A DNA stretch of 64,000 nt, from NCBI RefSeq assembly GCF_904848165.1, contig NZ_LR884459.1, forward strand, positions 3,410,001 through 3,474,000, read 5' to 3'. The position numbers were made by a program, and so were the translations under genes. Shown in pieces: positions 20,646 to 53,988 of this stretch (position 1 is the stretch's first letter; each line of letters opens with the position of its first letter). Source of the DNA: Psychrobacter arenosus. GTDB taxonomy: Bacteria > Pseudomonadota > Gammaproteobacteria > Pseudomonadales > Moraxellaceae. The notes beneath the pieces are model-generated. The model was given only the letters and a program-made list of their open reading frames with translations. It was not told the origin of the DNA and did not search any database.

Positions 20646-20660
20646 AGCTTTGCTCCAAAA

Positions 20661-21026: not shown

Positions 21027-21067
21027 TTCTAATGTTCCTAATCAAATAGTTAATATAATTTATAGGT

Positions 21068-21970: not shown

Positions 21971-22183
21971 AACCCTATATTGAGTTTGATATTTATTCTT
22001 ATATTTCAAGATATTGTAAATTGTATACAAAGACTAACAAAGGTCGAATTATGCCAGTTTATTGAGATATGGCAACAAAAATTTAACTTTTTTAAGCGAT
22101 TTTATAGTTTTACTAACTAGTTGTATTTTCTATGATATATGGGTCTAGCGTTAAAATAGCCTCCTAAAAAATAGCTTGAAGGT

Positions 22184-22812: not shown

Positions 22813-25800
22813 ATGAGTGAAAGCAAGTTTACTTCTAATTTTGATTTTATGGCAGAGCACGACCCAATATTTTTAGAGTTGGCCACCAATGCCGAACGGG
22901 TTTTTAAAAGTGACCCTAATACGAGCCTTATTAAGATGCGGCAGCTGGGGGAAGCATTAGCTCAGGACTTAGCCACTAGAAATAACATTGCTTTTGATAG
23001 AAATATAAAGCAGGTTGATTTGATAAATCGGTTAAATTACGAGCTACGACTCGATAAAAACCTTATTACTGAGTTTCATAGCTTAAGAGAAGAGGGCAAT
23101 AAGGCGGTACATAGTTTCAAAACTAATCATAGTGAAGCAGCGATAGCTTTAAAAATGGGCCGCTCGCTATGTATCTGGTATCACAAAACTTATGGCAAAA
23201 AAGGCGGTGTGTTCAAACCTGCTAAATTTGAAGAGCTTCCTGATCCGAGTCAGCAACTACAAAAGCTAACCTTACAAGTACAGCAACTATCGGCGCAACT
23301 TAAAAATACTACCAGTCAAAGTGACGATGTCGAAAAAATCACAAAGTTAAAGGAACAAGAAGCTGCTCTAATTGAACAAGAGAAAAGAGAATATCAGCAA
23401 TTGGCTGAAATGATGGATGAAGAAGCGCGCTCACTAGCGGAACAAAATAAACAACAAGAAGCAGAGCTGGCGAGAATAAGAAAAGAATTCGTCGAGCAAA
23501 CCGAGCAGCTACAAGCTGAGCTGGCCAAAAATATTGCCCAAGGTGTTAAGCTACCTACTCGCGTGAGACTAGCAGATTTTATTCCTTCTGAGGATGATGC
23601 GCGCTTATTGATTGATGAGCAGCTGCGTCAATCGGGCTGGCTAGTAGATAGCGAAATAATAACCCAAGCCAATGGCGAGATACCTGAAGTAGGTAAAAAC
23701 AAGGCCATTGCTGAATGGACTATGCAAAATGGCAGAGCTGATTACGTATTATTCGTCGGCTTATCCCCAGTCGCCACTATTGAAGCCAAGAGTCAGAACA
23801 CTAACGTATCTAATAAAATACAGCAGGCTGAAAGATACGCCAAAGGTATGAAGTTTACCGAAGCAATGAAACCCGCTTGGGAGCTTACAGACAGCGCTCT
23901 TAATTGGCGTAGCAGTAGTAGTCCTGACAATAGCGACTATGATATTCCCTTTGTGTTTTCGTGTAATGGTCGACCTTTTATTAAGCAGCTGCCAGAGCTC
24001 TCCGGTATTTGGTTTAGAGACGCTAGGAAAACCAATAACGCGGCTAAACCATTAGAGAGCTTTTATAGCCCAGAGGGGCTATTAGACCTCCTAAAACGTG
24101 ATGTATTACTAGCAGAGGACAAGCTTAAGCAAGAACCTTTTGCCTACCTAGGGCTAAGGGGCTATCAAGTAGACGCCATCAAAGCGGTTGAAGAAAATCT
24201 AGAGGCAGGTGCTGACCGTTGTCTTTTAGCTATGGCAACAGGTACGGGCAAGACGCGAACTATCATCGGTCTTATCTATCGCTTCCTAAAAGCTGAACGA
24301 TTTAAACGTATTTTATTTCTAGTAGATAGGACAGCGCTAGGTGAGCAGGCTTTTGATAGTATGCAAGAGATGACGCTAGAGCAAAACCAGACCTTATCAA
24401 AGATTTATAATGTCGCTGAGCTAGGCGATATGGCGGTAGAGGCGGAAACACGGGTGCAAGTGGCGACGGTCCAAGCGATGGTCAAACGTATCTTTAGCGG
24501 TGACAATCCACCTACCATCGACCAGTATGACTGCATCATTGTCGATGAGGCACATAGAGGCTACACCTTAGACCAAGAGATGACCGAAGGTGAGTTAGCT
24601 GTGCGCGATAACACTCAGTACCTATCTACTTATAGACGCGCGCTCGATTATTTTGATGCGGTTAAGATTGGATTAACGGCAACCCCTGCCAAGCATACCA
24701 GTGAAATCTTTGGTAAGCCTGTATTTAACTTCTCTTATCGGGAAGCAGTGGCCGCAGACTGGCTCATTGATTATGAACCGCCTATTCGCTATGAGACTCT
24801 ATTAACTAAAAATGGCATCCATATCGATAAGGGAGAGCAAGTTAGTCGTATCGATACCATGACGGGGGTAGTAGATACCGCTGAGTTAGAAGATGAGTTG
24901 AACTTTGAGGTGACTAACTTCAACCGTACGGTCATTACAGAAAGTTTTAACCGTGTGATTTGTGAACAGCTTGCCCAAGAGATAGATCCCACTGGTGACG
25001 AAAAGACCTTAATATTCTGTGCTACAGATTTGCATGCAGATATGGTCAAGCGCTTATTGGATGAAGCTTTTTTAGCTGTGCATGGGGACAGCTATAACGA
25101 AGATGCTGTCAAAAAAATAACGGGCGCTAGCGATAAAGTGGGTCAGTTGATCCGCCGTTATAAAAATGAAAAGTTCCCTAGTGTTGCTATCACGGTAGAT
25201 CTATTGACTACCGGTATCGATGTGCCCAGTATTTGTCATCTAGTATTTTTACGCCGAGTGAAGTCGCGTATTTTATTTGAGCAAATGATAGGTCGTGCTA
25301 CCAGACGTTGTGATGATATTGGTAAGACCGTCTTTAAGGTCTACGATCCTGTAGATATTTTTGCATCATTGCAAGACGTGAATACCATGAAACCCTTGGT
25401 GAAAAAACCCAATATCACTATTGATCAATTAATTGCAGAGTTGATTGACAACACACCCGCAAACTCCGCAGAGCCGCTGCTAGCGGAAGTGAGTGAAAGC
25501 AGTGTTAGTTATCAGATAGACAGCCCATCGTCAGATCATGATGAGAATGGCACTGAAGCAGACACAGCAGAGATCAATCAGGACAGCGAAGAGAATACGG
25601 TCTCAACGTCTCACGAGGATAAGTTTATTGTCTCCGCTCAAGAGATAGAGCAACACCACCAGCAGGTATTAGCTGAGCTATCGCAAAAAATCATGCGCGT
25701 ATTACGTAAAGCTGATAAAAAAGCTGAGCGTAAACCCGAGCTAAAAGCCAAGCTTGATGAATTAAAGGAACTGTGGGGCGTAGGGCCTGAGAAGCTACAC

Positions 25801-26472
25801 CAAGAGTTGCATGAAGGCGGAGTGGTGAAAGCTAAAGAATTTTTAATTAAGCATAGTAATTTATTAGGGCAACTGACTGAAGTGAAGTACCTTACAGGCT
25901 CAGCGCAAATGCCAGTCATCTACGAGGGTGAAGATGAGTTGCTTAGCCGAGAGCAAGGTTTTGGTGAGCATCAGCGTCCTGATGACTACCTAGAGAGCTT
26001 TGACGCCTATATTAGGAATAACCTCAATAATTCAGTCGCGCTAACTGTAATAGCAACCAATCCTAAAACGCTAACTCGTGAGGCGCTAAAAGAAGTCAAA
26101 ATCATGTTGGATAGTGCCGGTTATAGCGAGGCAAAATTGCGCTCGGCATGGCGTGAAAAGACTAATCAGGATATAGCGGCCAGTGTGATCGGCCATATCA
26201 GACGCGCAGCACTAGGTGAGTCATTAATACCCTTTGAGCAACGGGTCAATCAAGCTATGCAAGCCATCTATGCCAGTCACAGTTGGACCCCCTTACAGCG
26301 CAAATGGCTAGACCGACTCGCCAAGCAACTTCAGTACGAGACCTTAGTAGACAAGCGCTTTGTAAATGAGAGCTTTGCCAGTCAAGGTGGGGTTAAGCAG
26401 TTTGATAAGGTATTACAGAATAAGCTAGATGACGTGTTAGAGCAGGTCAATGAGGCTTTGTGGCAAGCTTAA
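22813..26472 (+). CDS. hsdR: Type I restriction enzyme, R subunit
   Basis: ATP-dependent DNA translocase/endonuclease subunit, 1219 residues. In order: a DUF4145-type N-terminal domain (about 15-115), a long coiled coil (about 145-255), a PD-(D/E)xK nuclease core ADYVLFVGLSPVATIEAKSQ (E-x-K near 324-326), SF2 helicase motor with Walker A MATGTGKTRT near 475-484, DEAH near 578, TATP near 622, motif VI QMIGRATRR near 827, and a C-terminal helical domain that binds the methylase. The layout matches the EcoKI-like class of HsdR. A second, unrelated-looking HsdR lies at 59-62 kb. HsdM and HsdS follow after a small secreted protein. Confidence 0.94.
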   Translation: MSESKFTSNFDFMAEHDPIFLELATNAERVFKSDPNTSLIKMRQLGEALAQDLATRNNIAFDRNIKQVDLINRLNYELRLDKNLITEFHSLREEGNKAVHSFKTNHSEAAIALKMGRSLCIWYHKTYGKKGGVFKPAKFEELPDPSQQLQKLTLQVQQLSAQLKNTTSQSDDVEKITKLKEQEAALIEQEKREYQQLAEMMDEEARSLAEQNKQQEAELARIRKEFVEQTEQLQAELAKNIAQGVKLPTRVRLADFIPSEDDARLLIDEQLRQSGWLVDSEIITQANGEIPEVGKNKAIAEWTMQNGRADYVLFVGLSPVATIEAKSQNTNVSNKIQQAERYAKGMKFTEAMKPAWELTDSALNWRSSSSPDNSDYDIPFVFSCNGRPFIKQLPELSGIWFRDARKTNNAAKPLESFYSPEGLLDLLKRDVLLAEDKLKQEPFAYLGLRGYQVDAIKAVEENLEAGADRCLLAMATGTGKTRTIIGLIYRFLKAERFKRILFLVDRTALGEQAFDSMQEMTLEQNQTLSKIYNVAELGDMAVEAETRVQVATVQAMVKRIFSGDNPPTIDQYDCIIVDEAHRGYTLDQEMTEGELAVRDNTQYLSTYRRALDYFDAVKIGLTATPAKHTSEIFGKPVFNFSYREAVAADWLIDYEPPIRYETLLTKNGIHIDKGEQVSRIDTMTGVVDTAELEDELNFEVTNFNRTVITESFNRVICEQLAQEIDPTGDEKTLIFCATDLHADMVKRLLDEAFLAVHGDSYNEDAVKKITGASDKVGQLIRRYKNEKFPSVAITVDLLTTGIDVPSICHLVFLRRVKSRILFEQMIGRATRRCDDIGKTVFKVYDPVDIFASLQDVNTMKPLVKKPNITIDQLIAELIDNTPANSAEPLLAEVSESSVSYQIDSPSSDHDENGTEADTAEINQDSEENTVSTSHEDKFIVSAQEIEQHHQQVLAELSQKIMRVLRKADKKAERKPELKAKLDELKELWGVGPEKLHQELHEGGVVKAKEFLIKHSNLLGQLTEVKYLTGSAQMPVIYEGEDELLSREQGFGEHQRPDDYLESFDAYIRNNLNNSVALTVIATNPKTLTREALKEVKIMLDSAGYSEAKLRSAWREKTNQDIAASVIGHIRRAALGESLIPFEQRVNQAMQAIYASHSWTPLQRKWLDRLAKQLQYETLVDKRFVNESFASQGGVKQFDKVLQNKLDDVLEQVNEALWQA

Positions 26473-26602
26473 AAGGAAAGGAGTAAATACTGAATGGCCT
26501 GCTCTAGCTAATTGATAATAAATAAGAGTAGATTATTGTTTTCTAAAATATAATAACCGTGTAATATAGGGTTTCTTAAATCCCTATTAATATCAAGGCT
26601 TA

Positions 26603-27157
26603 ATGATGAAGATAACTTTTAAAAAACTAACGGTCGCTTGCGTCGGTATCTTATTTGCTAGCACCGTCAATGCTGAGCCTAGTGACTATGGCTATGAAAT
26701 AAATGTAAAAAAAGGCGGCTACCATTTTACGCAATGTAAGATTGATGAAGAGGGCTCAGTAAACTTCTGCACCGCTAATATGGCTAAAAAGGTAGATGAA
26801 ATTGCTAAGCAAAAAACGAACTTCGGTAAAAATTCAGTAATGATGCGCTTTTGGGACAGCAATATAAACTATTGGGTATATGGTGCGGTTAATAAAACTA
26901 CTAAAAAAGTCTTCTTATATCCTAGAGGATTGCGAGCTTCAGAAGGTAATTCTAAAGATGTTAAAGTAACCTTTGGCGATAAACGCGATAGAATTTGTAC
27001 AGCAGGCAGTCACGTCACGATGGAAGGAGACAGGTATGTCACCAGTTATGATGATAGCAGTGCCACTACCGACTATTGCATCACTTATAATGACAACACA
27101 GGCTTTGGTAGCATGATCGAAGTCGATGCCAAAACTAGAAAAGTAATACGTGATTAG
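26603..27157 (+). CDS. Secreted protein of unknown function inside the restriction locus
   Basis: 184 residues with a clear signal peptide (KKLTVACVGILFASTVNA, cleavage after A24-E25). The mature part has four cysteines (QC, FC, IC, YC contexts) that could form two disulfides, consistent with a periplasmic protein. No family recognised. Two adjacent ATG codons start it; AAGG favours the second (26606). It is flanked by its own terminator at 27216-27239 and by about 130 bp on the left. So it is probably a separate cistron dropped between hsdR and hsdM, not part of the enzyme. Confidence 0.7.
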   Translation: MMKITFKKLTVACVGILFASTVNAEPSDYGYEINVKKGGYHFTQCKIDEEGSVNFCTANMAKKVDEIAKQKTNFGKNSVMMRFWDSNINYWVYGAVNKTTKKVFLYPRGLRASEGNSKDVKVTFGDKRDRICTAGSHVTMEGDRYVTSYDDSSATTDYCITYNDNTGFGSMIEVDAKTRKVIRD

Positions 27158-27215
27158 TTATTTGCATAATTTTTCTGTATCACTATAGTGGTTATAGCCG
27201 TTTATCTTCTAATGA

Positions 27216-27239
27216 AACACCTCTAGTAGGTGTTTTTTT
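27216..27239 (+). terminator. Rho-independent terminator
   Basis: AACACCT (27216-27222) and AGGTGTT (27228-27234) form a perfect stem with a five-base loop, followed by a T-run. It ends the secreted-protein transcript before hsdM. Confidence 0.8.
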
Positions 27240-27427
27240 AGGTCATTATTATTGAAAGCTATAACTTTATCCTGCCATCTTTATCATTTTTTGATGAAAG
27301 TTATTTTCAGCGTCATTAGCTGACGTTCTGTCGATATTTACCTTAGTTTAAGGGTGACTAGCCAGCTACCAAACAGTAAACTATACCCAATCCATAACTA
27401 AACCATTCAATAACTTCAGGACCTCTT

Positions 27428-29017
27428 ATGAGTAGTAGCAATATCGTACAAAAGCTTTGGAATCTCTGTGATGTACTACGAGATGATGGCATCAACTACA
27501 GTGATTATGTGACTGAGCTGGTACTACTGCTATTCATTAAGATGGAGTATGAAAATACAGAGCAGGGCTTATTGGTCAAGCATACCTTGCCAGAGGGCTG
27601 CCGTTGGACAGATATCAATGAGCTATCAGGGCTGAACCTGCTCAATAAATATAAGCAAGTCCTATTGGATCTCTCCCAGAGTGATGACTTATTAATTGCG
27701 ACTATCTATAACGATGCTTATACGCGCTTAAGAGAGCCGCGCCACCTTGAGCAACTGGTCAAGAGCTTAGACAATCTAGATTGGTTCAGTATCCAAAACG
27801 ATGGTCTGGGCGATCTCTATGAAGGCCTTCTTGAGAAAAACGCTACCGAGACTAAATCAGGTGCCGGTCAGTATTTCACGCCGCGCGTACTAATCGACAG
27901 TATGGTGCGCTGTATCAAGCCGCAAGTAGGTGAGGTAATCCAAGATCCAGCCGCTGGTACAGCAGGCTTCCTAATCGCTGCCGATGCTTATATCAAATCG
28001 CAGACCGATGATTTATTTGATGTGAGTGCTGAGCAACAAAAGTTCCAAAAGTCTAAAGCCTTTGTAGGTGTGGAGCTAGTACCGAATACCCGCCGTCTCG
28101 CGCTTATGAACTGCATGCTACACGGTATGGAAGGCGATAACGAAGGCGTAATCCATCAAGGTAATGCGTTAGGGGAAGCGGGCGCGAATCTACCTAAAGC
28201 CGATATTATCCTAGCCAATCCACCCTTCGGTACGTCCAAAGGCGGTGATGCCAGTATCACCCGTGATGATTTAACTTATAAGACCAGTAATAAGCAGTTG
28301 GCATTTTTGCAACACATCTATCGCAACCTTAAGGCAGGCGGGCGTGCCGCTGTGGTGCTGCCTGACAACGTATTGTTTGAAGCCGGTATTGGTACTGAGA
28401 TACGTCGTGACTTGATGGATAAGTGTGACTTGCATACCATTTTGCGTCTGCCTACCGGTATCTTTTATGCCGCTGGCGTGAAAACTAACGTGTTATTTTT
28501 CACGAAAGGTACTGCTAAAAATCCAGACCAAGACCAGAAGTGTACTGAAAACGTCTGGGTCTATGATTTACGTACCAACATGCCAACCTTTGGTAAGCGC
28601 ACGCCTTTTAGTCCACAGCACTTAGCACCGTTTGAAGCGCTCTATGGCGATGATCCAAAAGGCACGAGTCCTCGTAGCGAAGGAGACTGGTCATTTGCTC
28701 CTGAGCTAGAGGAAGACAAGGGTGAAGCCGCTGAGCAAGATATGGAGAACAGTCGCTGGCGTGTGTTTAGCCGTAATTGGATTGCGGATGAAAAGGGCGA
28801 TAGCTTAGATATTAGTTGGTTAAAAGATAGCGATAGTATTGATGCAGCAGATTTAGCTGAACCTCATGTGCTAGCTAGTGAAGCGATGACAGAGCTTACT
28901 GAGGCTTTACGTCAGCTTGATGGTTTAATGCAGGCTTTGGGTCAGGCTGATGAAGCCGATGTTCAAAAACAATTACTACTAGATATTTTAGGTTTAGATA
29001 CAGAGGGCAAACTATGA
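27428..29017 (+). CDS. hsdM: Type I DNA methyltransferase, M subunit
   Basis: Adenine-N6 methylase subunit, 529 residues. An N-terminal helical HsdM_N domain (1-150) with WNLCDVLRDDGINYSDYV is followed by the SAM-binding motif DPAAGTAGFL near 173-182 and the catalytic NPPFG near 264-268. The C-terminal helices end in acidic/leucine-rich sequence that contacts HsdS. Its stop overlaps the hsdS start as ATGA, giving coupled translation. About 270 bp and a terminator separate it from the preceding gene, so it should have its own promoter in 27240-27420. That fits the need to make the methylase independently of HsdR. Confidence 0.95.
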   Translation: MSSSNIVQKLWNLCDVLRDDGINYSDYVTELVLLLFIKMEYENTEQGLLVKHTLPEGCRWTDINELSGLNLLNKYKQVLLDLSQSDDLLIATIYNDAYTRLREPRHLEQLVKSLDNLDWFSIQNDGLGDLYEGLLEKNATETKSGAGQYFTPRVLIDSMVRCIKPQVGEVIQDPAAGTAGFLIAADAYIKSQTDDLFDVSAEQQKFQKSKAFVGVELVPNTRRLALMNCMLHGMEGDNEGVIHQGNALGEAGANLPKADIILANPPFGTSKGGDASITRDDLTYKTSNKQLAFLQHIYRNLKAGGRAAVVLPDNVLFEAGIGTEIRRDLMDKCDLHTILRLPTGIFYAAGVKTNVLFFTKGTAKNPDQDQKCTENVWVYDLRTNMPTFGKRTPFSPQHLAPFEALYGDDPKGTSPRSEGDWSFAPELEEDKGEAAEQDMENSRWRVFSRNWIADEKGDSLDISWLKDSDSIDAADLAEPHVLASEAMTELTEALRQLDGLMQALGQADEADVQKQLLLDILGLDTEGKL

Positions 29018-30315
29018 GTGGAGTAAGTTTGCTGCAAAGTTGGAAAAATATAAAACTTGATGAAGCAGTCTTAAAAATAGTCGGTGGTGGAACACCTAGT
29101 AAATCTACTCCTGAATATTACAAAGGGGATATACCTTGGATGTCAGTAAAAGATTTGAAAGGATATACCCTTAAGAGCACTCAAGATTATATTACTCAGG
29201 AAGCGGTTGAAAATAGCGCAACTAATATTATTCCTAAAGGAATACCTATTGTTGCTACAAGGATGAGCCTAGGTAAAATCGTTATTGCTAGTTTTGACAC
29301 GGCCATTAATCAAGATTTAAAAGCAATATTTTTATCTCCCTATGTATCGGTCCAGTTTTTTGTATATTGGTATCGGTCCAAATTAAATATTATTGAGTCG
29401 TTAGGTACAGGAACAACTGTAAAGGGTATCCGGTTAGACAACTTAAAAAACTTGGAATTTTGTTTATATCCATTAGCTGAACAAAAAGAGATAGTAAGAC
29501 TGTTAGATACTCATCTTGCCACAGTCACGCAAATCCAAGCTCGACTTGAAGCTATACCTAAAATACTTGAGAGGTTTCGTCAGTCTGTATTGGCTGATGC
29601 TGTGAGTGGGAGACTTTCAGGTACTGAATTTAATCAAGTTGATAAGTTGGAAATTGGTAATGTAGCAGAATTAAATCCAAAGAAAGAAAAGCAAACTGAT
29701 GATTTTGAGGTTTCATTTTCATCAATGAGTATGATGTCTGCAGAATTTGATAAGCCACTAGGTTTTGAGAGCAAAAGATGGAGCGAAGTAAAAAAGGGTT
29801 ACACGTTTTTTAAGAACAATGATGTTTTATTAGCAAAAATAACACCATGTTTTGAAAATGGAAAATCAGTGATCGCTAATAATTTGATAAATGGTATCGG
29901 AACAGGTTCTACAGAGTTTTTAGTCATTAGATGCTCTGATAAAGTACTACCTACATGGATCTTATATCACTTTAAACAGAATAGTTTCATTGCCTCAGGT
30001 GTTGCAAATATGTCTGGGTCAGTAGGTCATAGACGCGTACCAAAAGAATTTATAGAAAGTTATAAAATTTATTTACCGAGCCTAGATAAACAAGTTGAAA
30101 TAATTAATCGAACCAAGCAACTTCTTGCCTACGCAGAACAAATAGAAAAAAGCGTCGCAGCTGCCAAAGCCCGTGTCGATAATTTGACTCAGTCTATTCT
30201 TCATCAAGCCTTTACTGGTCAATTGACAGCAGAGTGGCGTGAGCAAAATCCTGAGCTTATTAGCGGTGATAATAGTGCTGAGGCTCTTTTGGCTAGGATT
30301 CAGGCTGAGGGGTAG
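29014..30315 (+). CDS. hsdS: Type I restriction-modification specificity subunit
   Basis: DNA target-recognition subunit, 433 residues. Two target-recognition domains (about 8-150 and 205-345) are each followed by a conserved helix; LAEQKEIVRLLDTHLATVTQ is the central spacer helix and LDKQVEIINRTKQLLAYAEQ the second. It ends with the expected IL HQAFTGQLTAEWREQNPE tail. The first domain starts with the typical GGTPSKSTPEYYKGDIPW sequence. It overlaps hsdM by four bases. The recognition sequence cannot be inferred by eye. Both domains are intact, so the system looks functional. Confidence 0.94.
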   Translation: MSGVSLLQSWKNIKLDEAVLKIVGGGTPSKSTPEYYKGDIPWMSVKDLKGYTLKSTQDYITQEAVENSATNIIPKGIPIVATRMSLGKIVIASFDTAINQDLKAIFLSPYVSVQFFVYWYRSKLNIIESLGTGTTVKGIRLDNLKNLEFCLYPLAEQKEIVRLLDTHLATVTQIQARLEAIPKILERFRQSVLADAVSGRLSGTEFNQVDKLEIGNVAELNPKKEKQTDDFEVSFSSMSMMSAEFDKPLGFESKRWSEVKKGYTFFKNNDVLLAKITPCFENGKSVIANNLINGIGTGSTEFLVIRCSDKVLPTWILYHFKQNSFIASGVANMSGSVGHRRVPKEFIESYKIYLPSLDKQVEIINRTKQLLAYAEQIEKSVAAAKARVDNLTQSILHQAFTGQLTAEWREQNPELISGDNSAEALLARIQAEG

Positions 30316-30583: not shown

Positions 30584-31300
30584 GTGAATAACAACTCTAC
30601 AGATATTATTAAACGGCAGCTGCTCATCATAAAATTATTATTAGAAGGCAATTATGTGTCGACCAGACAGATACAAGAACATCTGCTGAAATCGGGCATT
30701 GAGACGAAGCTACGCTCACTGCAAAGAGACTTGGCGGCCTTAGAAGAGATATTACCTATTGAGTGTCGTAAAGACGATAAGCCCTACAGTTGGCGATGGC
30801 AGCGTTTGGCCACTACTAGTGAGCACCAACTGAGTTTGTCACAAGCTATCGCATTGCGTTTGGTGGAGACAGAATTACGTGGGATCATACCTGAAGACTT
30901 ATATGACAGGCTTGAGCCTTTGTTCATCAAGTCGCATTTCGTAACGGGGCTATCTCAACTGACTGCTCTTGATAATTGGGATGACAGCTTGCAAAGAGAC
31001 CTGCCAGATAGCTTTATCAATCATGATCGGTCTAAGTTTAATTATTATCAAAGGCCTAGTGTGACATCAATTTCGACCTTAAGGCGCCTTATGATGCTTA
31101 TGTATGCCAAGCGTCAACAGCAAAAAATCACTAAAAAATTAGTAGTACCGCAGCTACGACCTTTAGATTTAAAACAACTAGAAGGACAACTGATGCTGCA
31201 GGAAGAGAGCACAGAAAAGCTGTTAAAAGATTTGGTGCTTACTTTGGTAAGACATGATTTAGAAATAGTCACTGAACTTTTGACAGATAAGAACTTTTAG
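30584..31300 (+). CDS. Regulator with WYL-family N-terminal half, WYL domain absent
   Basis: 238 residues starting at GTG (30584). The N-terminal winged helix (YVSTRQIQEHLLKSGIETKLRS, then LQRDLAALEE) and the following LSLSQAIALRLVETELRGIIP helix are those of WYL-type repressors of defence loci. The strand-rich WYL domain that should follow near residue 150 is replaced by a short helical end, and the gene stops. So it binds DNA and probably dimerises but lacks the usual ligand domain. It lies 111 bp ahead of the AAA+ gene and is likely its regulator. Confidence 0.75.
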   Translation: MNNNSTDIIKRQLLIIKLLLEGNYVSTRQIQEHLLKSGIETKLRSLQRDLAALEEILPIECRKDDKPYSWRWQRLATTSEHQLSLSQAIALRLVETELRGIIPEDLYDRLEPLFIKSHFVTGLSQLTALDNWDDSLQRDLPDSFINHDRSKFNYYQRPSVTSISTLRRLMMLMYAKRQQQKITKKLVVPQLRPLDLKQLEGQLMLQEESTEKLLKDLVLTLVRHDLEIVTELLTDKNF

Positions 31301-31359: not shown

Positions 31360-31411
31360 TCATGAGTTATACCACTGAAATATTTAAATTAAATGACTTT
31401 AAGGAGGGTTT

Positions 31412-32479
31412 ATGGCTCAAGAGTCTAACAGGGTAAGCCTAGAAACAGATATAAGGCAAAGCAATAAATCTAAAACTATATTTAGAACTCCTTCACTTAT
31501 TGAGGATAAAAAGGATCGAAAAATTTCCATAGTGGCTGATAGTGATGAAGATAATACTGTCTATCAAGCTCAACCATCGAAATATCATTTAAATACTGAT
31601 GTCATTCTTGCCGCTCACACCCTCAACGAGCTTGAAGAAAGCCTAGCAAAAATAAAATTCCACAAAGTGATTTATGAAGACTGGGGCTTTGCCGAGGTAG
31701 ACAAACTTGGACGTAGTAGTATTTTAAATTTTTATGGCAAGCCTGGAACTGGCAAGACTCTGACTGCTGAAGCTTTTGCTGGCCGATTAGACTTGCCAAT
31801 CATTAAGGTGGGCATAGCTGAAATTGAAAGTAAGTTAATGGGAGAAACGTCTAAGAATATACAGAAAGTTTTTCAGGATGCTTATGCGCAAGGTGCAGTT
31901 TTATTTTTTGATGAAGCAGATACTTTATTGGGTAAACGTCTTTCTTCCGTTACCCAAGGCGTAGATAACGAAGTCAACGCTATGCGTTCCACTATGCTCA
32001 TTGAACTAGAAAAATTTGATGGCATTGTCATTTTTGCCACTAACTTCGCTAAAAATTATGATGAGGCTTTCCGTTCACGGATTAGTTACCATGTTGAGTT
32101 TATCCTCCCTGACTTAGACACTCGTAAAAAACTTTGGTCGAGAATGTTAGTAGAGAAAATCCCGTTGGCTGATGACAGAGAAACTATAATCGATCAGTGT
32201 GCTGAACTATCAGAAGGGTTTTCAGGCCGTGAGATAAGGACCTGTATGCGGTTGGCATTACCAAAAGCATTAATGCAACCAGGTGTAGCGGTTGAAGAGG
32301 CAATGCTGAATATTGAGCATCTGAAATCAGCTATCGAAAATGTCAAAAAATCTCAAAGAGAAGTGGGTGGAAATACAGAGGCTAGCAGTAGACGCAGAAA
32401 TGCTGTTCAAGAAGTTCAAATAGCAAAAAAAATGTTGGGGACAAAGAATAAGTCACCAGAGGAAAGTGAATCTTTATAA
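31412..32479 (+). CDS. AAA+ ATPase of the ZorAB-like operon
   Basis: 355 residues. Walker A GKPGTGKT is near 109-116, Walker B VLFFDEADTLLG near 163-174, sensor 1 IFATN near 206-210, and the arginine-finger region EAFRSRISYHVEF near 219-231. A sensor-2/lid helix SGREIRTCMRLALPKA follows. The fold is that of classical AAA proteins (FtsH/Vps4-like remodelling ATPases), with a 90-residue N-terminal lead lacking a membrane span. The ribosome site AAGGAGGG is very strong. It is first of four genes in tight order before the MotA- and MotB-like proteins. It probably works on those or on an invading target; its substrate is unknown. Confidence 0.85.
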   Translation: MAQESNRVSLETDIRQSNKSKTIFRTPSLIEDKKDRKISIVADSDEDNTVYQAQPSKYHLNTDVILAAHTLNELEESLAKIKFHKVIYEDWGFAEVDKLGRSSILNFYGKPGTGKTLTAEAFAGRLDLPIIKVGIAEIESKLMGETSKNIQKVFQDAYAQGAVLFFDEADTLLGKRLSSVTQGVDNEVNAMRSTMLIELEKFDGIVIFATNFAKNYDEAFRSRISYHVEFILPDLDTRKKLWSRMLVEKIPLADDRETIIDQCAELSEGFSGREIRTCMRLALPKALMQPGVAVEEAMLNIEHLKSAIENVKKSQREVGGNTEASSRRRNAVQEVQIAKKMLGTKNKSPEESESL

Positions 32480-32530
32480 AAAGTGAAACATTAGCAATCA
32501 GTAATATCTTATATTTTTAGGGGTTAAATT

Positions 32531-33823
32531 ATGGGTTGGTTTAGTAGTGCATGTTCATGGGTAGGTAGTAAGGTCAGTAGTGCTGCATCTTATGTTTCAG
32601 AAAAGGTTAGCGAAGGCTTGTCTTGGGCAAGAGAGAAAGCAGCTAAAGCATGCGATTGGATTGCGGAGGAAGGCGAAAATTTTATTGATAAGGTCAAGGA
32701 TGTCTATAAAAAAGTAAAGCCTTTTTTGCAAAAGGTGAGGCCATGGTTAGAAGCGGCGGCAAAGGTTGCTCCATTCCCTTGGTTAAAAGTTGGGTTAATG
32801 ATGACTGCGAAAGCCATCGACTCACTATTAGCTTTAGAAAATAGCCCAGTATTACATGCTTTAGAAAAAGCAGTTAGAAAAACTATTAAGCTTGCTCAAC
32901 AAATAAAAGAAAGATATTTAACGCCAGAAGAAGTAGAAGAAGCTAAAGAAAATCGTGATGCCTTTATGCAAGCTGAACAACAGTACGAAACAGAGTTGAG
33001 CAAAGAGCAGAGAAAGGCTCTGCAACTTAATGAAATGCTAAACAACTATGGAATCTTAAAATTTGAGTTAAGAGAAGTATTAGAGATGGGGGTTATCGAC
33101 TTCCAACACTATTTAAGATTACGGGCCACTCAAAAATTATTAGATATCACAGAACAGAAAATTATTACAGTTACTAATATTGATGATATCCATAATGATG
33201 ATATTTATTTAATTAAGATAGCAGAAAGCCTACTTTCGACAGCTCAACTTTCTGATGAAGATGCATTAAAACTAGATGGCATTATCCAACAACGGTTTGG
33301 TAAGTCACTTATTCCTTTTGTATTTGAAGAATTGATGTTTGTATGGGTTGAAAAACAGCAAACATTAGAACAAAGTTGGAGCGAATTAAGTAAAAAGCTA
33401 TCTAAAGATAGAGTATTAAAGACTCGTTTAGAAGTCGCTAAACGTACTTCAGAATTAACAGTAGAAGAAAATGAGATATACAGTGAACTGTTAACTAAAA
33501 TGAGTGGCGAGGAATCCAAGCTTAGTCGTTTGGATAATGAACGTCGTTCAATGAAAAGCTATGTTTATGCTGCTGAAGGCTTTATGCAAATACTTGAAAA
33601 AGATGACGCGACCCTAGAAGCTGAAGATAAAGATTACCTTATTGAAGATAGTGAAGAAATAGCTAGTATCATTATGCGAGTAGCGCAAAACAATACTCCT
33701 TGGGAGTCTTTAACTAGCGAAGAGCAAAGCTTGATTACCGATTATGCCAATATTTTTGAGGCAGAAGGTAAAGCTCGAGCAGAGAAGCTTAAGAAAGAAA
33801 TTGTAGTAGGAGTAGCGGCATAA
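32531..33823 (+). CDS. Unknown helical protein of the ZorAB-like operon
   Basis: 430 residues, no family recognised. The N-terminal about 110 residues are a chain of amphipathic helices rich in W, A, K and S (WVGSKVSSAASYVSEKV, then GLSWAREKAAKACDWIAEE), like a membrane-surface binding region. The rest is charged coiled helices with regular leucines (ELSKEQRKALQLNEML; KTRLEVAKRTSELTVEENE). There is no signal peptide. Its stop overlaps the next gene as TAATG, so it is translated together with the MotA-like protein. It could be the sensor or effector of the system, by position only. It does not look like ZorC, ZorD or ZorE as I know them. Confidence 0.72.
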   Translation: MGWFSSACSWVGSKVSSAASYVSEKVSEGLSWAREKAAKACDWIAEEGENFIDKVKDVYKKVKPFLQKVRPWLEAAAKVAPFPWLKVGLMMTAKAIDSLLALENSPVLHALEKAVRKTIKLAQQIKERYLTPEEVEEAKENRDAFMQAEQQYETELSKEQRKALQLNEMLNNYGILKFELREVLEMGVIDFQHYLRLRATQKLLDITEQKIITVTNIDDIHNDDIYLIKIAESLLSTAQLSDEDALKLDGIIQQRFGKSLIPFVFEELMFVWVEKQQTLEQSWSELSKKLSKDRVLKTRLEVAKRTSELTVEENEIYSELLTKMSGEESKLSRLDNERRSMKSYVYAAEGFMQILEKDDATLEAEDKDYLIEDSEEIASIIMRVAQNNTPWESLTSEEQSLITDYANIFEAEGKARAEKLKKEIVVGVAA

Positions 33824-35595
33824 TGCGAATAGTAGAAATTGGCGATTTCTTAAATCCGTTTGGTGAAACACTTTCTACCATTTTTGTCATTAGTCTCATC
33901 CTATTAACGATAGCCACTGTAGTCTGGTTGCTTGTTTCAGCTAAGGAGACAAACTGGGAGGCAAATTGGCACGGTGGTGACTTAGATAATGAAGAAAATA
34001 ACCTAGCAGGGGAGTATGGTTCTGTACAAGAGTTAAGTGAAGCTGTCGCTACAAAAGCTGAAAAAGTAGCTGAAATTATGCCTAGTATGTTATTAATAGT
34101 AGGTTTGCTTGGTACGTTTTTGGGTTTAGGTATCGCACTTAACAAAGCATCTACTGTACTCGCGATGGCGGATACAGCGGGAATGGATTCAGCCATGACT
34201 CAATTAATGGGTCTCATGGACGGTTTGGGCGCTAAGTTTAAAACATCTACTTGGGGGATTCTATGTTTTATCATTCTTAATCTTCTATTTAATACATTTG
34301 GTTTTCAAGAAAAAAGACTTGCATGGGCTATTAAAAAAGTTCGCGCAGAAGCTAAAGTAAAAGAAATGGCACTAAGTAATAGAGAGTTAGAAAGACATGA
34401 GATAATGATTAATGCGCTTAAGAGCATTGATAATAATGCCCAACATAATAATCAATTGCTAGTAGATAATATAAGATCATTACAAGAGGATAATATTAAA
34501 GAGCTGAGTAATATTTTCCTAATATCTGGTCAAATGAGAAACGATATTAATAATAATAATCGACATTTGATTGACTCTTTTAATAAGGTCAATGAGGATA
34601 GTCTATCAAAATATGAGAAGCTATTTAGTCAGGTCCAATCTAGCCTAGATAAAAACAATAAGATAGCTACTGAAAACTCTAAAGACAATATTACTGAACT
34701 GCGAAAGATAGCTAGCTACAATAAAGCTACGCAGCAATCCATGCAAGACTTCGTTGAGCAAACAGTTGATAGTATGGCATCTATTGGAGGATCCGCAGAT
34801 AAAATGGCTGTAGCAGCTATTGCTGTAGGGGACTCTGCAAAAGGTTTGAATGGGGTGGTTAAAAACCTGCGTGACGAGCTTGAAGGTGTTATGTCTATGA
34901 TAAAGAAAGATTTATCAGAAACTATTAATAGTATGGGTAAAAGCTTTGAAGCTAATATGGCCACTATGTCAAAGAGTATGGGAGAAGCAACGTTAGGTAT
35001 CTCAAACGCTGTTGGAGACCTGTCTACTAGTGTTAATCATACTATGTCAGGAGTAACCAAAGCAATTAATGATTCAATGGAGTTGCAGCTTAAGTCTGCC
35101 AATGAATTTACAGTTACAAGCGCAACCTTAAATGGTCAAATATTTGAAATGACAGATTTAGTCAATAAATTATCAAATGATATAATGAGTGGATTAAAAG
35201 CAGTGTCTGAAAGCGGACGACGTATGATAGCGCTTAATGTGCGTTATGAAAAATATGCAGAATTAGTTGAAAAGATTACAGAGACTAACCAGCAGGTATT
35301 AAGTGATAATCAGCATATAACGAGCTATTTGCCAAAAATGGTCGATTCTATTCCTAACCTTGGTAATAGTATGAGTAAAAATTTATCAGAATCTATAGAA
35401 ATACAGAGAAATTCTACTGAAATTTTTAGTCAGCTTTCAGGCGATATAAAAGATGCCTTAAAGATAATATCTCAAAGTTCAGATAGGTTAGAGGCATTAA
35501 ATTCACGCTATGAAAACTATGCTGAACTTGTAGAAAAAATTACTCAAAGTAATCAAAATCTACTCGCCAAGCTTGAACAAAAAAGTGTTGCATAG
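33823..35595 (+). CDS. MotA/TolQ/ExbB-like channel protein with long cytoplasmic tail (ZorA-like)
   Basis: 590 residues. Three membrane segments: about 17-39 (STIFVISLILLTIATVVWLL), about 86-108 (MLLIVGLLGTFLGLGIALN) and about 143-163. The MLLIVGLLGTFLGL segment is the signature of MotA/TolQ/ExbB proton-channel proteins. Residues 165-590 form a long predicted coiled coil with two copies of a 40-residue repeat ending in NxRYExYAELVEKIT (about 456-495 and 545-585). ZorA of Zorya anti-phage systems has the same plan: a MotA-like ring plus a long intracellular tail. It starts one base before the previous stop and is followed 11 bp later by the MotB-like partner. Confidence 0.85.
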   Translation: MRIVEIGDFLNPFGETLSTIFVISLILLTIATVVWLLVSAKETNWEANWHGGDLDNEENNLAGEYGSVQELSEAVATKAEKVAEIMPSMLLIVGLLGTFLGLGIALNKASTVLAMADTAGMDSAMTQLMGLMDGLGAKFKTSTWGILCFIILNLLFNTFGFQEKRLAWAIKKVRAEAKVKEMALSNRELERHEIMINALKSIDNNAQHNNQLLVDNIRSLQEDNIKELSNIFLISGQMRNDINNNNRHLIDSFNKVNEDSLSKYEKLFSQVQSSLDKNNKIATENSKDNITELRKIASYNKATQQSMQDFVEQTVDSMASIGGSADKMAVAAIAVGDSAKGLNGVVKNLRDELEGVMSMIKKDLSETINSMGKSFEANMATMSKSMGEATLGISNAVGDLSTSVNHTMSGVTKAINDSMELQLKSANEFTVTSATLNGQIFEMTDLVNKLSNDIMSGLKAVSESGRRMIALNVRYEKYAELVEKITETNQQVLSDNQHITSYLPKMVDSIPNLGNSMSKNLSESIEIQRNSTEIFSQLSGDIKDALKIISQSSDRLEALNSRYENYAELVEKITQSNQNLLAKLEQKSVA

Positions 35596-35606
35596 GGGTG
35601 CAGTAG

Positions 35607-36242
35607 GTGCAAAAAAAACCAAGTGAATGGATATCCATTGCAGATTTGATGTCAGGTGTCATGGCAGTAGTGATGCTACTGCTCGTTATATCTGTGCTAC
35701 AAAATACTTATGCTGAAGTTAAGCATAAGCAGGAAATGGAAAGTAGCCAAAAAAATGAGAATCAGAAGATAGAAAGCTTATTAGAAGATATTCAGTCCTC
35801 AGTTACCGCACAAGGTGCAGGAAATTTAATTGATTTTAATTTAGAGCAAAGCAAGATTACGTTGAAAGATAATATTTTTGCTAGAGGTAGTGCTTGTATT
35901 ACTCCAGAAGCACAGATGGCATTTAAAAATATAGAAGATAAAATAAATCGATTTTTACAACAATCTTCTAGCGCTAAAATATTTGTAGAAGGCCATACAG
36001 ATAACATTCCCGTATCTAAGCCTGTGACAGACTACCAAAGATTTTGTACAGTGTATGATGACAATTATACACTGTCTGCAGCACGCGCTAGAGAAGCTCG
36101 TAAACTCTTAGTTGGACAGTTAGACAGTTCTATAGCAAAACGTATTATCGTAGCAGGTTATGGTGATTCCCAACCTATTAAAGGTATCTCTCCTGAAGAT
36201 GATGCAAATAGACGGGTCGAGGTAAGGTTGTCTTTAAAATAA
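35607..36242 (+). CDS. MotB/OmpA-like stator partner (ZorB-like)
   Basis: 211 residues starting at GTG with AGGGG eight bases upstream. A single N-terminal membrane helix (ADLMSGVMAVVMLLLVISVL) carries Asp13, in the place of the proton-binding aspartate of MotB and ZorB. A linker follows, then a C-terminal OmpA-like peptidoglycan-binding domain with VEGHTDNIPVS near 127-137 and LSAARAREARKLL near 153. It would anchor the MotA-like ring to the cell wall and pass ions. Codons 2-4 contain an A8 run (35611-35618). Last gene of the four-gene operon. Confidence 0.86.
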   Translation: MQKKPSEWISIADLMSGVMAVVMLLLVISVLQNTYAEVKHKQEMESSQKNENQKIESLLEDIQSSVTAQGAGNLIDFNLEQSKITLKDNIFARGSACITPEAQMAFKNIEDKINRFLQQSSSAKIFVEGHTDNIPVSKPVTDYQRFCTVYDDNYTLSAARAREARKLLVGQLDSSIAKRIIVAGYGDSQPIKGISPEDDANRRVEVRLSLK

Positions 36243-36300: not shown

Positions 36301-37302
36301 ATGCCCTCTAATAATAAAAAATTAACCCTAATGCTAGGATTCAGTTTAGTATCCCTATTGGCCTCAGGTTCGGCACTAGCGGGACTGCAGGCTTTCCAAA
36401 ATAATTCAAGCGATAACTATAGCTGTGGCTATAAGAATGATAAAGGTCAAACCGTAGTTGCGGCCAAATATGAAGGGTGTGGCAACTTTTCTGAAGAGCT
36501 AGCTCGGGTATCGATTATCAAGCCGATAATGAAAGATGGCTATGAAGACGGTATCTATTTGCAAGGCTATATCAATGAAACCGGTAAGCTCGTCATACCT
36601 ATTAAGTACGAAGCGCCACTATTCGATGGTGTAATAATAGATTATCGAGATTTTCATCAAGGTCTATTAGCCGTTTATAAGAATGGCAAATATGGCTATA
36701 TGAATAAGTCAGAAAGGCTAACGATTCCTTATCAGTACGATACAGCAGGTGACTTTAATGATGGCCTAGCAGTGGTGAGTCGTAATGAAAAATATGGTGT
36801 TATCGATAAAAATGGCAAAACCGTAGTGCCATTTAAGTTTGATGGGTTAGATGACTATTCAGAAGGCTTAGCGAAGTATAGAGTTGGGGATTGGGGTGAT
36901 GCAGCTAAGTTTGGCTTTATAGATAAATCTGGCAAAGTAGCTATTCAGCCAAAGTGGGACGAAGCAATGGAGTTCTCTGAAGGTCTCGCTGCTGTCAAAG
37001 TAGGGGGTTATGAGACGGGCAAATGGGGCGTGATTGATAAGTCTGGCAAGCAGATAGTCGCCCCTAAATATGATAGGGCCTATATTGAGCCGATGGGTGA
37101 TGCTGTCGAGGTGGATGGTGGTCGTTATGTAGACGGTAAGCTTGAAGTCTATAACTTAAATAAAGCGGGGGCGGGCGCCTATATGGACTACGGCAGTATC
37201 ACTCGCTATATCTTAAATCGACAAGGCAAAATTATTGAGCAAAAAAACTTTGCTGATTGGAATGAGATCGAGAAGGTCCGTCACCCTGAGTATTACGAAT
37301 AA
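36301..37302 (+). CDS. Secreted WG-repeat protein
   Basis: 333 residues with a signal peptide (LTLMLGFSLVSLLASGSALA) and five or more WG (KWG) beta repeats: GYINETGKLVIPIKYE, GVIDKNGKTVVPFKFD, GFIDKSGKVAIQPKWD and GVIDKSGKQIVAPKYD are the clearest. WG-repeat proteins are exported or surface proteins of largely unknown function and often sit near accessory loci. It begins 58 bp after the ZorB-like gene with its own AGGAC site, so it may be on the same transcript. Whether it belongs to that system is open. A perfect terminator follows. Confidence 0.8.
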   Translation: MPSNNKKLTLMLGFSLVSLLASGSALAGLQAFQNNSSDNYSCGYKNDKGQTVVAAKYEGCGNFSEELARVSIIKPIMKDGYEDGIYLQGYINETGKLVIPIKYEAPLFDGVIIDYRDFHQGLLAVYKNGKYGYMNKSERLTIPYQYDTAGDFNDGLAVVSRNEKYGVIDKNGKTVVPFKFDGLDDYSEGLAKYRVGDWGDAAKFGFIDKSGKVAIQPKWDEAMEFSEGLAAVKVGGYETGKWGVIDKSGKQIVAPKYDRAYIEPMGDAVEVDGGRYVDGKLEVYNLNKAGAGAYMDYGSITRYILNRQGKIIEQKNFADWNEIEKVRHPEYYE

Positions 37303-38824: not shown

Positions 38825-39688
38825 CTAGGTTGCTTGACTACCAAACCTACCCAAAAACTGACTGACAGTGTCTGAGATATCCGAGAGAGGATTTTCGCTA
38901 ACATCGAGTTGCTCCAATGCCCGTAAATCAGTAATACTCTCGGGCAAGTTTTCTAAACCATTCTTATAAAGCCCAAGACGTTTCAGTTGCTTCAGATTGC
39001 CTATAGAGCTTGGTAAGGTTTTTAAGTCAGAACCCCGTATGTCTAGTTTTTCAAGGTTTGTTAAGTTTCCGATACTATCAGGCAAGGCTGTCAAATCTCT
39101 ATTGGCAGACAGTTGAATACTGGTGAGCTTGCTCAGATTGCCAATAGAGTCGGGTAGGTGCTGTACCTTAGATCCTCTCATATCGAAATGAGTAAGCGCT
39201 GATAGATTGCCAAGCTCATCAGGAATTTTCTCTAAAGTTTTTGACAAGATATTAAGCGATTTAAGGTGCTTTAATTGACACAAAACTTTGGGGAATTCAG
39301 TACAAGCGCTATGCATGTAAACCAGCGTCTCTAAGTTATCCAACTGCGCAATCTCTTCTGGTAGCTCTGCAAACCCTATCAATCTAAGATATTTTAGGTT
39401 TTTTAAATTGCCGATAGCGCTTGGTAATGGCTTAGTGGACTCACTTTCGCTTTGTAATACTGATTTATTATCAATATAGTTATAATGCGTCAATTTTCCA
39501 TAGCCTAAATCAAGTCGCTCTGACTGACGCAATTCTTCAGGCTCACGAGGGATAATGCTATCAGGGCTACCATACATATTATGGTTATCCATCCAGTCCC
39601 ATATCTCTAACATCCAGTCTTCAACGCCCGCATCTTGCTTGCGATTAGTATTATTATCTTGGTGGGTTTTACCGTTATGTGCTGTCAT
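38825..39688 (-). CDS. Leucine-rich-repeat protein (LRR copy 1)
   Basis: 287 residues, probably cytosolic with no signal peptide. An N-terminal region with DWMLEIWDWMDN and DSIIPREPEELRQ (about 22-52) is followed by eight 23-residue leucine-rich repeats of the bacterial LPxxIGxLxxLxxLxxxxN type. The same N-terminal motif (WM-x-x-IW-x-W ... IPR-x-x-x-EL) occurs in the two plus-strand LRR genes to the right, so all three are one family. The ribosome site AAGG is seven bases before the ATG. LRR proteins of this kind bind other proteins; the partner is unknown. A decayed relative lies at 43544-43757. Confidence 0.85.
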   Translation of the reverse strand: MTAHNGKTHQDNNTNRKQDAGVEDWMLEIWDWMDNHNMYGSPDSIIPREPEELRQSERLDLGYGKLTHYNYIDNKSVLQSESESTKPLPSAIGNLKNLKYLRLIGFAELPEEIAQLDNLETLVYMHSACTEFPKVLCQLKHLKSLNILSKTLEKIPDELGNLSALTHFDMRGSKVQHLPDSIGNLSKLTSIQLSANRDLTALPDSIGNLTNLEKLDIRGSDLKTLPSSIGNLKQLKRLGLYKNGLENLPESITDLRALEQLDVSENPLSDISDTVSQFLGRFGSQAT

Positions 39689-39765
39689 AATTTTGCCTTT
39701 TAATAATAATTAAATGAGGTGAGTGCATTCAAATTTTTAGCTAGTTTTCTTGCTAAGTGACAGAA

Positions 39766-39978
39766 TTAAAAGTAATTAGGCGCAGTAATACGACCAAGGT
39801 AAACCCTATGCATAGCAAGGCTGGTTATTAAAAGGACTGATAAAGAGTTGTGACTCTTGCCGGGAGGCCTATTGGAAAAATAAGGACAGCAAAACGCACT
39901 CATAGGACGCATTGACTGAGTACGAGGAAGGCTTTTAGAAAATATAAAAATCGGAATAAATTGGCTAGAAGTAGCCAT
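39766..39978 (-). CDS. Doubtful small ORF
   Basis: 70 residues from the ATG at 39978, preceded by GGAG at seven to eight bases; the frame opens at 40029. Composition is rich in S, P and F with no recognised domain (MATSSQFIPIFIFSKSLP...). It lies in a decayed, repeat-rich stretch next to an IS relic. The ribosome site is the only support, and it may be a non-coding remnant. Confidence 0.3.
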   Translation of the reverse strand: MATSSQFIPIFIFSKSLPRTQSMRPMSAFCCPYFSNRPPGKSHNSLSVLLITSLAMHRVYLGRITAPNYF

Positions 39979-40029
39979 AAAGAAATCTCCTATTACTCTG
40001 TCTGTGCCAAATTGAAACGACACAGTCAC

Positions 40030-40178
40030 CTTACAGAGCGAAAAGGAGGTGTGCGTTTTACCAGTCTTTGTTTTTCATCGCGCTGGAAGTAGCCTTAAAC
40101 CCACGATGTTTTTTTATCATAGCAAGTGATTTTTATTTTGTCAAAAGTGAAATGAAGGGGTCATAGAACTGATCTGCT
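40030..40178. other. Non-coding stretch beside the IS630 relic
   Basis: No gene or clear signal is visible. The phrase GCTGGAAGTAG occurs at about 40083-40093 and again at about 40690-40700 (the end of the decayed transposase). That suggests this stretch also derives from insertion-sequence decay. Confidence 0.35.
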
Positions 40179-40712
40179 TGGTATTAGTCAAAAAAAAGAC
40201 CTTAGAGCATCCAAAAACCTGCTCGATAAAAAGGTTTATATATCAGAGTAAGCTTAATCGTTTCATGGATTAAGGCTATCCTATTGTTTACATGGATGAA
40301 AGTGGCTTCGAGTGCGAGACTATTTGGCTTCGAGTGCGAGACTATTCGTCCCTTTGCCATGCACCGATAGGTAAGCCTTGTATCGACAGTTACAACTGGC
40401 GAGGTAAAAAACGCTCCAATGTCATCAGTGCTCTCTATGAAAAGATGTTATTTGCGCTTGACTACTTTTAGCAGAACATCAATGGTGATATATTCTACCA
40501 CTGATGTAAATACACACTTATTCCAAGTCTTAAGACCAAATGTGTGATCGTTATGGATAACGCCAGCTTTCACAAGCAAGTGCAAAGACTGTTGAATAGG
40601 CACGGTCACAGACTTCTATTCTTACCACCATATAGTTCTAATCTAAGTCCTATCGAAAAAAATAGGCACAGGCAAAGTTCTTACATCAAGGCTGGAAGTA
40701 GAATGATTTAAA
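40179..40712 (+). pseudogene. Decayed IS630-family transposase
   Basis: Translation in one main frame gives the IS630/Tc1-like DDE core: IVYMDESGFE (first Asp), SYNWRGKKRSNVISAL, CVIVMDNASFHK (second Asp), LLFLPPYSSNLSPIEK (Glu), and AQAKFLHQGW after a one-base shift. It is broken by at least four in-frame stops (for example TAA at about 40270, TAG at about 40469, TGA at about 40502) and by a 23-bp-period tandem duplication near 40304-40346. The N-terminal DNA-binding part is missing. No flanking inverted repeats were found. The element is dead. Confidence 0.85.
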
Positions 40713-40811
40713 AAACCATTTTATGATATAGGCTGTATAGATTTTATAAAGAATTAACTATATTACGCATAACTAACATCCTTTCGCATTAATATAAGGA
40801 ATAGTAAGATT

Positions 40812-41864
40812 ATGACTGATGAAAATAAACATAGACAAACTGAACCTATGACTAATTATGAAATAGCGTATCACTATAATAGTAGTCCTTTGACATTAGA
40901 AGATAAAGAAAGTTTAATGGAGGCCCCTCTTAATTCAGCATTAGCAATACAAAGATCAAGCCAAATGGTAGTTAATGAAAGTTGGATGAAACGTATATGG
41001 GAATGGGCAGATGAGTTCGATGTTCCTGAGGAAAGTATTCCGCGTAATCGAGATGAGCTACTAGCTATAACACGTTTAGATATTTTTAGACCTAAACTTG
41101 CATTACCTAAAATAGATTATCTGCCGGATGAGTTGACATTCCTTAGTAATCTCTTAGTACTCAATATTAATCGTTGTGCACTTACAAGCTTGCCTAAGAG
41201 TATTGGTCAACTCGCTAATTTGACACAACTTGATGTTAGTGATAATGAAATTAAAGAGTTACCCGAAAGCATTGTTCAGCTTAGTAATTTATCTAGTCTC
41301 AATATTTCGGGTAATAGGCTTAGAGACTTACCTGAAAAAATCGGCCAACTTACTAAATTAAATTTTCTTAATGTCTGTGGTAACAACCTTAGAGGATTAC
41401 CTGAAAGCATTGGTCAGCTCACTAATTTAAATACGCTTAATGCGGATTATAATAATCTCAGAGGGCTACCTGACAGTATTGGTCAGCTCACTAATTTGAT
41501 AAGTCTTAAACTTCATACCAATCATCTGAGAAAATTGCCTGAAAGCATTGGTCAGCTTACTAATTTAACGAATCTTTCTGTTGGTGAAAGTCAGCTCAGA
41601 AAGCTACCTGAAAGCATTGGTCAGCTGACTAATTTAACATATCTTCATGTTGGTGATAACCAAATCAGAAACTTGCCTGAAAGCATAGGCCAACTGACTA
41701 ATTTGGATTTTTTGCATGTTGGTGGTAACAATATTAGAAGCTTACCTGAAAGTATTAGTCAGCTTACTGATTTAACTTATCTTTATATTAGTGAAAGCGA
41801 GCTTGGAGATTTGTCTGAAAGCCTTGTTCAGCTCATTAATATGGAACAGCTTGATGTTTTTTAA
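40812..41864 (+). CDS. Leucine-rich-repeat protein (LRR copy 2), possibly cut short by a stop
   Basis: 350 residues. The N-terminal region is shared with copies 1 and 3 (NESWMKRIWEWADEF, EESIPRNRDELLA near 55-85), then eleven 23-residue LPESIGQLTNLxxLxxxxNxL repeats encoded by near-identical 69-bp DNA units. The AAGGA site is ten bases from the ATG. The stop TAA at 41862 interrupts a repeat: after it the same frame continues as NNLRDFPQYSS and stays open to 41939. So the protein has probably lost its last repeat end. It lies 139 bp before copy 3 in tandem; the two are recent paralogues. Confidence 0.85.
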   Translation: MTDENKHRQTEPMTNYEIAYHYNSSPLTLEDKESLMEAPLNSALAIQRSSQMVVNESWMKRIWEWADEFDVPEESIPRNRDELLAITRLDIFRPKLALPKIDYLPDELTFLSNLLVLNINRCALTSLPKSIGQLANLTQLDVSDNEIKELPESIVQLSNLSSLNISGNRLRDLPEKIGQLTKLNFLNVCGNNLRGLPESIGQLTNLNTLNADYNNLRGLPDSIGQLTNLISLKLHTNHLRKLPESIGQLTNLTNLSVGESQLRKLPESIGQLTNLTYLHVGDNQIRNLPESIGQLTNLDFLHVGGNNIRSLPESISQLTDLTYLYISESELGDLSESLVQLINMEQLDVF

Positions 41865-46246: not shown

Positions 46247-46285
46247 CTTATATTATTTACCGTGCTATGTGTGCTATGTATCCCT

Positions 46286-53987: not shown

Positions 53988-53988
53988 G

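Follow-up and report, generated by a model that had tools for sequence, protein, structure and literature searches.

The window analysed here, a stretch of 64,000 nucleotides from Psychrobacter arenosus, belongs to a genome that consists of one contig of 3.70 Mb. Between positions 31412 and 36242 it contains an operon of four genes on one strand, in the order AAA+ ATPase, P2, zorA-like and zorB-like. The initial annotation had interpreted these genes as a motor operon of a new Zorya-like type, and the layout it gave was borne out. The AAA+ gene (31412..32479, plus strand) encodes 355 amino acids (aa) and is followed by the gene of a 430-aa helical protein, here called P2 (32531..33823, plus strand). 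The zorA-like gene (33823..35595, plus strand, 590 aa) starts inside the end of the P2 frame with an overlap of one nucleotide, and the zorB-like gene (35607..36242, plus strand, 211 aa) begins with GTG. The strong site noted in the initial annotation could be read directly: AAGGAGGG, the Shine-Dalgarno sequence of the first gene, occupies positions 31401..31408 of the plus strand, before the ATG at 31412.

The motor subunits and their two partner proteins

The A subunit, encoded by the zorA-like gene, contains three hydrophobic segments, the transmembrane segments (TM) TM1 (residues 20-38), TM2 (88-106, GLLGTFLGL) and TM3 (143-161, immediately preceded by KFKTSTWG). The tail after TM3 comprises about 425 residues, was assigned to the cytoplasm and corresponds to the long tail of Zorya systems; homologous ZorA proteins are 487 to 854 aa long, except for one split copy. 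Earlier described as a MotA/TolQ-like protein with such a tail, the subunit falls into the ZorA class by profile and by fold. Comparison by hhalign with small reference groups of three to five rows each gave 95.3, 91.8 and 93.6% for ZorA of types I, II and III, 2.1% for MotA and 5.5% for ExbB. A MotA-class flagellar stator was rejected on the basis of the 2.1% value, which was obtained with five reference rows. In a fold search of the PDB with a model of the A subunit, ZorA 8VVN ranked first in both comparisons; structures of TolQ/ExbB ranked just after it and ahead of some ZorA entries. PADLOC matched the protein to ZorA1 (8.4e-12), and the NCBIfam cut-offs were missed (ZorA_1, 40.9 versus 190 bits; ZorA_2, 33.7 versus 100; ZorA_3, 13.5 versus 250). 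No Pfam family was found above cut-off, and a search of the whole genome for the MotA_ExbB family identified three places elsewhere but not the A subunit of the operon. The closest named proteins belong to Psychrobacter.

The B subunit has a single transmembrane segment with the membrane aspartate Asp13 recognized in the initial annotation, followed by an OmpA-like domain (Pfam OmpA, 8.4e-13, above cut-off). This ion-path residue is kept in 45 of 45 aligned B subunits, including the copy of the window, and Cys97 and Cys147 are conserved across the family. A membrane aspartate combined with a peptidoglycan-binding domain is characteristic of ZorB, but MotB shares both features, so that their presence does not discriminate between the two. 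The PADLOC match was to ZorB1 (5.2e-22), and the NCBIfam cut-off for ZorB1 was missed (27.4 versus 400). With the ZorB1 model our copy scored 75.8 bits, other proteins from the genomes of the class 65-77 bits and the ten best matches 113-325 bits; six of those other proteins adjoin a MotA-like gene, as judged by eye. In a ZorB tree the 21 rows of the operon's own family formed one group (99/99) apart from the rows of Zorya I, II, III and MotB. They were not nested within the clade of a known Zorya type, and the deep branching order of the tree was poorly supported.

The first gene was correctly assigned to an AAA+ ATPase. The protein carries a classic AAA domain (Pfam PF00004, 2.5e-25, above cut-off), and an alignment of 47 sequences showed conservation of its catalytic positions 109-116, 165-170 and Arg223, and of the C-terminal L342-G343. 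We take the first two to be Walker A (109-116) and Walker B (FFDEAD, 165-170). IetA was the best named family both in PADLOC (3.5e-34, 116.8 bits) and in NCBIfam (109.7 bits), ahead of CdvC (79) and PAN (75.2), but the match is far short of the 510-bit NCBIfam cut-off for IetA. IetAS consists of an AAA ATPase and a subtilisin-like protease. The operon differs from it in that its genes include those of a motor, and in that none of the four matched a protease family in PADLOC, Pfam or NCBIfam.

P2 looks like a new protein family. It gave no match in PADLOC or NCBIfam and two in Pfam, both far under cut-off, and all named relatives among the matches listed (120 in each of two lists) are called 'hypothetical protein'. 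The AlphaFold2 model is all-helical, with a predicted local distance difference test score of 76.2 and values below 50 for residues 1-63. Compared with the PDB, the model resembled no solved fold at E<=0.001, and VIA-align returned for the most part generic helical hairpins. In the alignments the N-terminus shows a conserved MGxFSS and then a stretch rich in Ser, Val and Ala; the most strongly conserved segments are FxHYLRLRATQKLL (191-204) and PFVFEE (262-267). The earlier description of an unknown helical protein agrees with these results, while its amphipathic character is only modestly backed by a helical moment that peaks at about 0.6 (residues 46-66) and is 0.28 at the extreme N-terminus.

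Conservation of the four genes as a unit

Using an alignment of P2, we found 41 database loci with P2 in the genome collection. The AAA+ gene adjoins P2 at all of them, and the complete set in identical order is present at 39, the other two (L009 and L040) ending at a contig edge; a conserved gene order, for which a check across genomes had been proposed, was thus found. In two of the complete loci (L012, L027) the zorA frame is split, and L018, L028, L030 and L031 seem to be near-duplicates of other loci among the 41. The hosts are, by name, mainly gamma- and betaproteobacteria, together with one Sphingomonas and one metagenome-assembled genome of Cloacimonetes. The latter locus (L043), outside the Proteobacteria, has all four genes, and its ZorA is the longest (854 aa). 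The same order was further seen in E. coli VREC0761, on a phage-labelled faecal contig, on a Paraburkholderia megaplasmid and on an IMG/VR contig, and another locus from IMG/VR begins at P2. The shared order exceeds chance, and the pairwise distances of the four proteins correlate with r of 0.84-0.91 (40 loci), a level that 0 of 1000 permutations reached. These results support the AAA+ ATPase and P2 as conserved partners of the ZorAB-class motor.

The distribution of the operon is rare and patchy, as expected for horizontally moved genes. With this genome counted, it occurs in 4 of 105 genomes of the genus and in 5 of 299 of a family sample, from which a sixth, weak match was excluded. In a class sample of 369 genomes it was found in this genome alone, and DNA similarity to enterobacterial queries detected it in one of 5426 E. 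coli genomes.

Among 44 measured cases, the frame of P2 runs into that of zorA in 39 (median -4 bases, with mechanically set starts), as expected for a physical partner of ZorA. This overlap bears on an alternative division of labour, in which the AAA+ protein would itself be the effector, unfolding or extracting phage or host proteins, and P2 an adaptor or scaffold between the ZorA tail and the ATPase. The higher score of IetA compared with CdvC and PAN and the conserved C-terminal L-G point in the same direction. On the other hand, the IetA match stays well under the NCBIfam cut-off and within the common AAA fold, and the four genes are devoid of any protease match. We regard this arrangement, which would be a variant inside the core claim of a Zorya-like motor controlling an AAA+/P2 module, as rather unlikely.

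Genomic setting of the operon

The window itself is a defence island. The type I restriction-modification (R-M) system reported upstream of the operon was confirmed, with genes at 22813-30315. Between it and the operon, outside the core, lies a gene for a probable helix-turn-helix regulator related to WYL regulators (30584..31300, plus strand); its designation as WYL-type finds support in a PADLOC match (WYL, 2e-6, residues 10-153) but not in a Pfam family. Further defence-related features are an AlbA_2 protein at 44819, a second HsdR (59032-62202) and a GmrSD-like protein at 62195. On the minus strand at 51870-57423, adjacent genes encode a DdmE-like protein (2.6e-7, a weak match, 705 aa) and a DdmD-like protein (6.3e-32, 1144 aa), perhaps a diverged DdmDE-like plasmid-defence system.

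Some other genes of the window deserve mention. A WG-repeat protein with a signal-like N-terminus is encoded 58 base pairs (bp) past zorB (36301-37302, plus strand) and was not found at related loci. At 38825-43356 there are three leucine-rich-repeat proteins, the third identified by eye, two of which share a similar N-terminal sequence. Within the island, two large overlapping genes on the plus strand (46262-51696) encode a 757-aa protein without a Pfam match and one of 1054 aa that contains a phage-integrase domain (48532-51696). On the minus strand (18405-22030) lies the gene of a 746-aa protein with a weak Dynamin_N match below cut-off; ahead of it on that strand come a 121-aa gene and the gene of a WYL regulator (21068-22030).

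With R-M genes and the DdmD/DdmE-like pair also present in the window, the island is not specific to phage. The operon might accordingly be directed at plasmids or other mobile DNA, with a motor that senses events at the envelope as DNA is taken up. We consider this very improbable: no plasmid-specific link was found, and the tested Zorya types act on phage, according to the parts of PMC11890865 and PMC8565338 available to us.

For the neighbourhood of the related loci we scanned 276 of 291 proteins of at least 220 aa from 37 of the 41 loci; the four near-copies were omitted and 15 long or doubtful reading frames were removed by hand. As a control, 212 of 216 proteins (four removed) from 20 regions of 18 kb in other genomes were used. 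All neighbour counts are lower bounds, taken from the best 25 of 127, 203 and 33 matching models. HsdM matches adjoin the operon at five of the 41 loci (L004, L016, L021, L023, L027) and additionally at L051 and L054. WYL models matched at least 10 of the 276 neighbour proteins and none of the 212 controls. At 10 of the 41 loci a WYL-type gene, detected with WYL queries or with the regulator of the window, precedes the AAA+ gene on the same strand by at most 500 bp, and L043 was recognized by eye as an eleventh; the regulator is associated with the operon at some loci and is not part of its core. At two loci a Zorya I operon is located downstream of the four-gene set, at a distance of 347 bp (L016) and 421 bp (L027). 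The matches in L027 cover ZorA, ZorB, ZorC and ZorD, the last cut by the end of the locus; those in L016 cover ZorA, ZorB and ZorD, with a gene in the position of ZorC. Two neighbour proteins of the set that holds these Zorya I operons contain an EH_Signature domain. In E. coli a tyrosine integrase follows 230 bp past the operon, beside nfeF, and an integrase matching the E. coli copy (E 0.0) sits after the operon in L025, L028, L030 and L054.

In the 20 control regions no Zorya I operon, type I restriction gene, HsdM or WYL match was found. The controls matched 10 models in the first set, RtcR (three models), mad3, dGTPase, PDC-S07, mad8, mad2, BrxL and AriA, and six in the second, mad3, RTasPolA, ZorB3 and three ZorB1, with one protein each. 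Since 16 PADLOC models match in the controls, single models evidently match ordinary proteins too. The typical defence setting proposed earlier holds for the window and, with R-M genes, WYL regulators or Zorya I, for some of the loci, R-M being matched at only 5 of 41.

The low frequency of matched R-M genes would also suit a non-immune machine for envelope stress or transport, in which a ZorAB/Tol-like motor acts on the cell wall with AAA+ and P2 as cytoplasmic accessories and the genes spread horizontally. The inability of the profiles to tell ZorB from MotB and the position of TolQ/ExbB next to ZorA in the fold search fit such a function. MotAB, ExbBD and TolQR share the expected ion-motor architecture with the operon. 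However, the A-subunit profile is unlike MotA and ExbB and its tail is long, the operon has no rotor, TonB or TolA gene, and no Ton, Tol or flagellar partner was recognized among the scanned proteins of the window. The rarity in the genus, the integrase-bearing islands and the R-M and Zorya I genes adjoining several loci likewise make this explanation improbable.

Among the ZorAB-like pairs encountered, some have other neighbours. L109 shows a 529-aa gene and then a ZorD-like gene, L111 has 380- and 843-aa genes after zorB and a ZorD-like gene before zorA, and L119, with a 613- and 217-aa pair, groups with ZorB III in the tree.

A candidate Zorya-like defence type

The operon shares with Zorya I (ZorABCD) the long-tailed ZorA-class subunit with three segments, the ZorB membrane aspartate and OmpA-like domain, and the setting in defence islands, and with Zorya II (ZorABE) and III (ZorABFG) the ZorAB core. 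It differs from them in its partners: AAA+ and P2, located upstream of zorA, match no PADLOC model of ZorC, ZorD, ZorE, ZorF or ZorG. Its ZorA scores far below the NCBIfam cut-off, and its ZorB rows and those of types II and III form separate, well-supported groups. Neither the four-gene set nor P2 has an entry in PADLOC 2.0, Pfam or NCBIfam, and we found no open-licence full text on such a set, a 'Zorya-like' or a type IV system; the portions available to us of the literature found, including PMC12505986 and PMC13192584, cover Zorya I-III only. The proposed search against ZorA-G and defence profiles matched three of the proteins and left P2 without a family. According to the portion of PMC8565338 available to us, the PADLOC authors based Zorya type III on new genes that surround the core pair; by this convention the operon is a candidate new type. 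The ZorAB core is already known, and the AAA+/P2 partnership, with P2, looks like the new part.

Its recurrence as one unit, sometimes beside known defence genes, indicates that the operon probably represents phage defence of a type not yet described, and the motor together with its setting argues for a Zorya-like immune role. Since no nuclease family was matched by AAA+ or P2, the motor most likely controls an ATP-driven AAA+/P2 module. We assign a probability of roughly two in three to this reading, a Zorya-like defence motor controlling the AAA+/P2 module. It carries one qualification: the ZorB hidden Markov model match does not tell a Zorya protein from a flagellar MotB, so that the claim of a Zorya-like type rests on the A subunit.

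For Zorya I and II, the available part of PMC11890865 reports a requirement for peptidoglycan binding by ZorB, for ion flow and for the ZorA tail, which is proposed to recruit nucleases. In our model, five ZorA-like and two ZorB-like subunits would form an ion-driven motor in the inner membrane, with the OmpA-like domain of ZorB as its anchor in peptidoglycan. Damage to the envelope as a phage enters may set off this motor, ions passing Asp13 of ZorB while the ring of ZorA-like subunits and its long tail rotate or change shape. The tail could then recruit or activate the cytoplasmic AAA+/P2 module, in which the ATPase would remodel P2. P2, with its predicted disordered, Ser/Val/Ala-rich N-terminus, would most probably halt the infected cell at the inner membrane. 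A membrane activity of P2 is no more than a guess, a function as AAA+ adaptor being about equally likely. Only tentatively do we propose the complete sequence of events: triggered by phage, the ion-driven motor at the cell wall would activate AAA+ through the ZorA tail, and AAA+ would convert P2 to a membrane-disrupting or membrane-remodelling form; the effector set off in this way would involve no nuclease.

With about 4.8 kb the set is compact, and the invariant ZorB aspartate, the Walker motifs and the ZorB cysteine pair offer targets for mutation. If the proposal is true, the operon would combine Zorya-type sensing with an effector chemistry that no Zorya system is known to use, and P2 would represent a new family of defence proteins. 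An AAA+/P2 variant without a recognizable nuclease would test the view of ZorAB as a general sensor that accepts different effectors.
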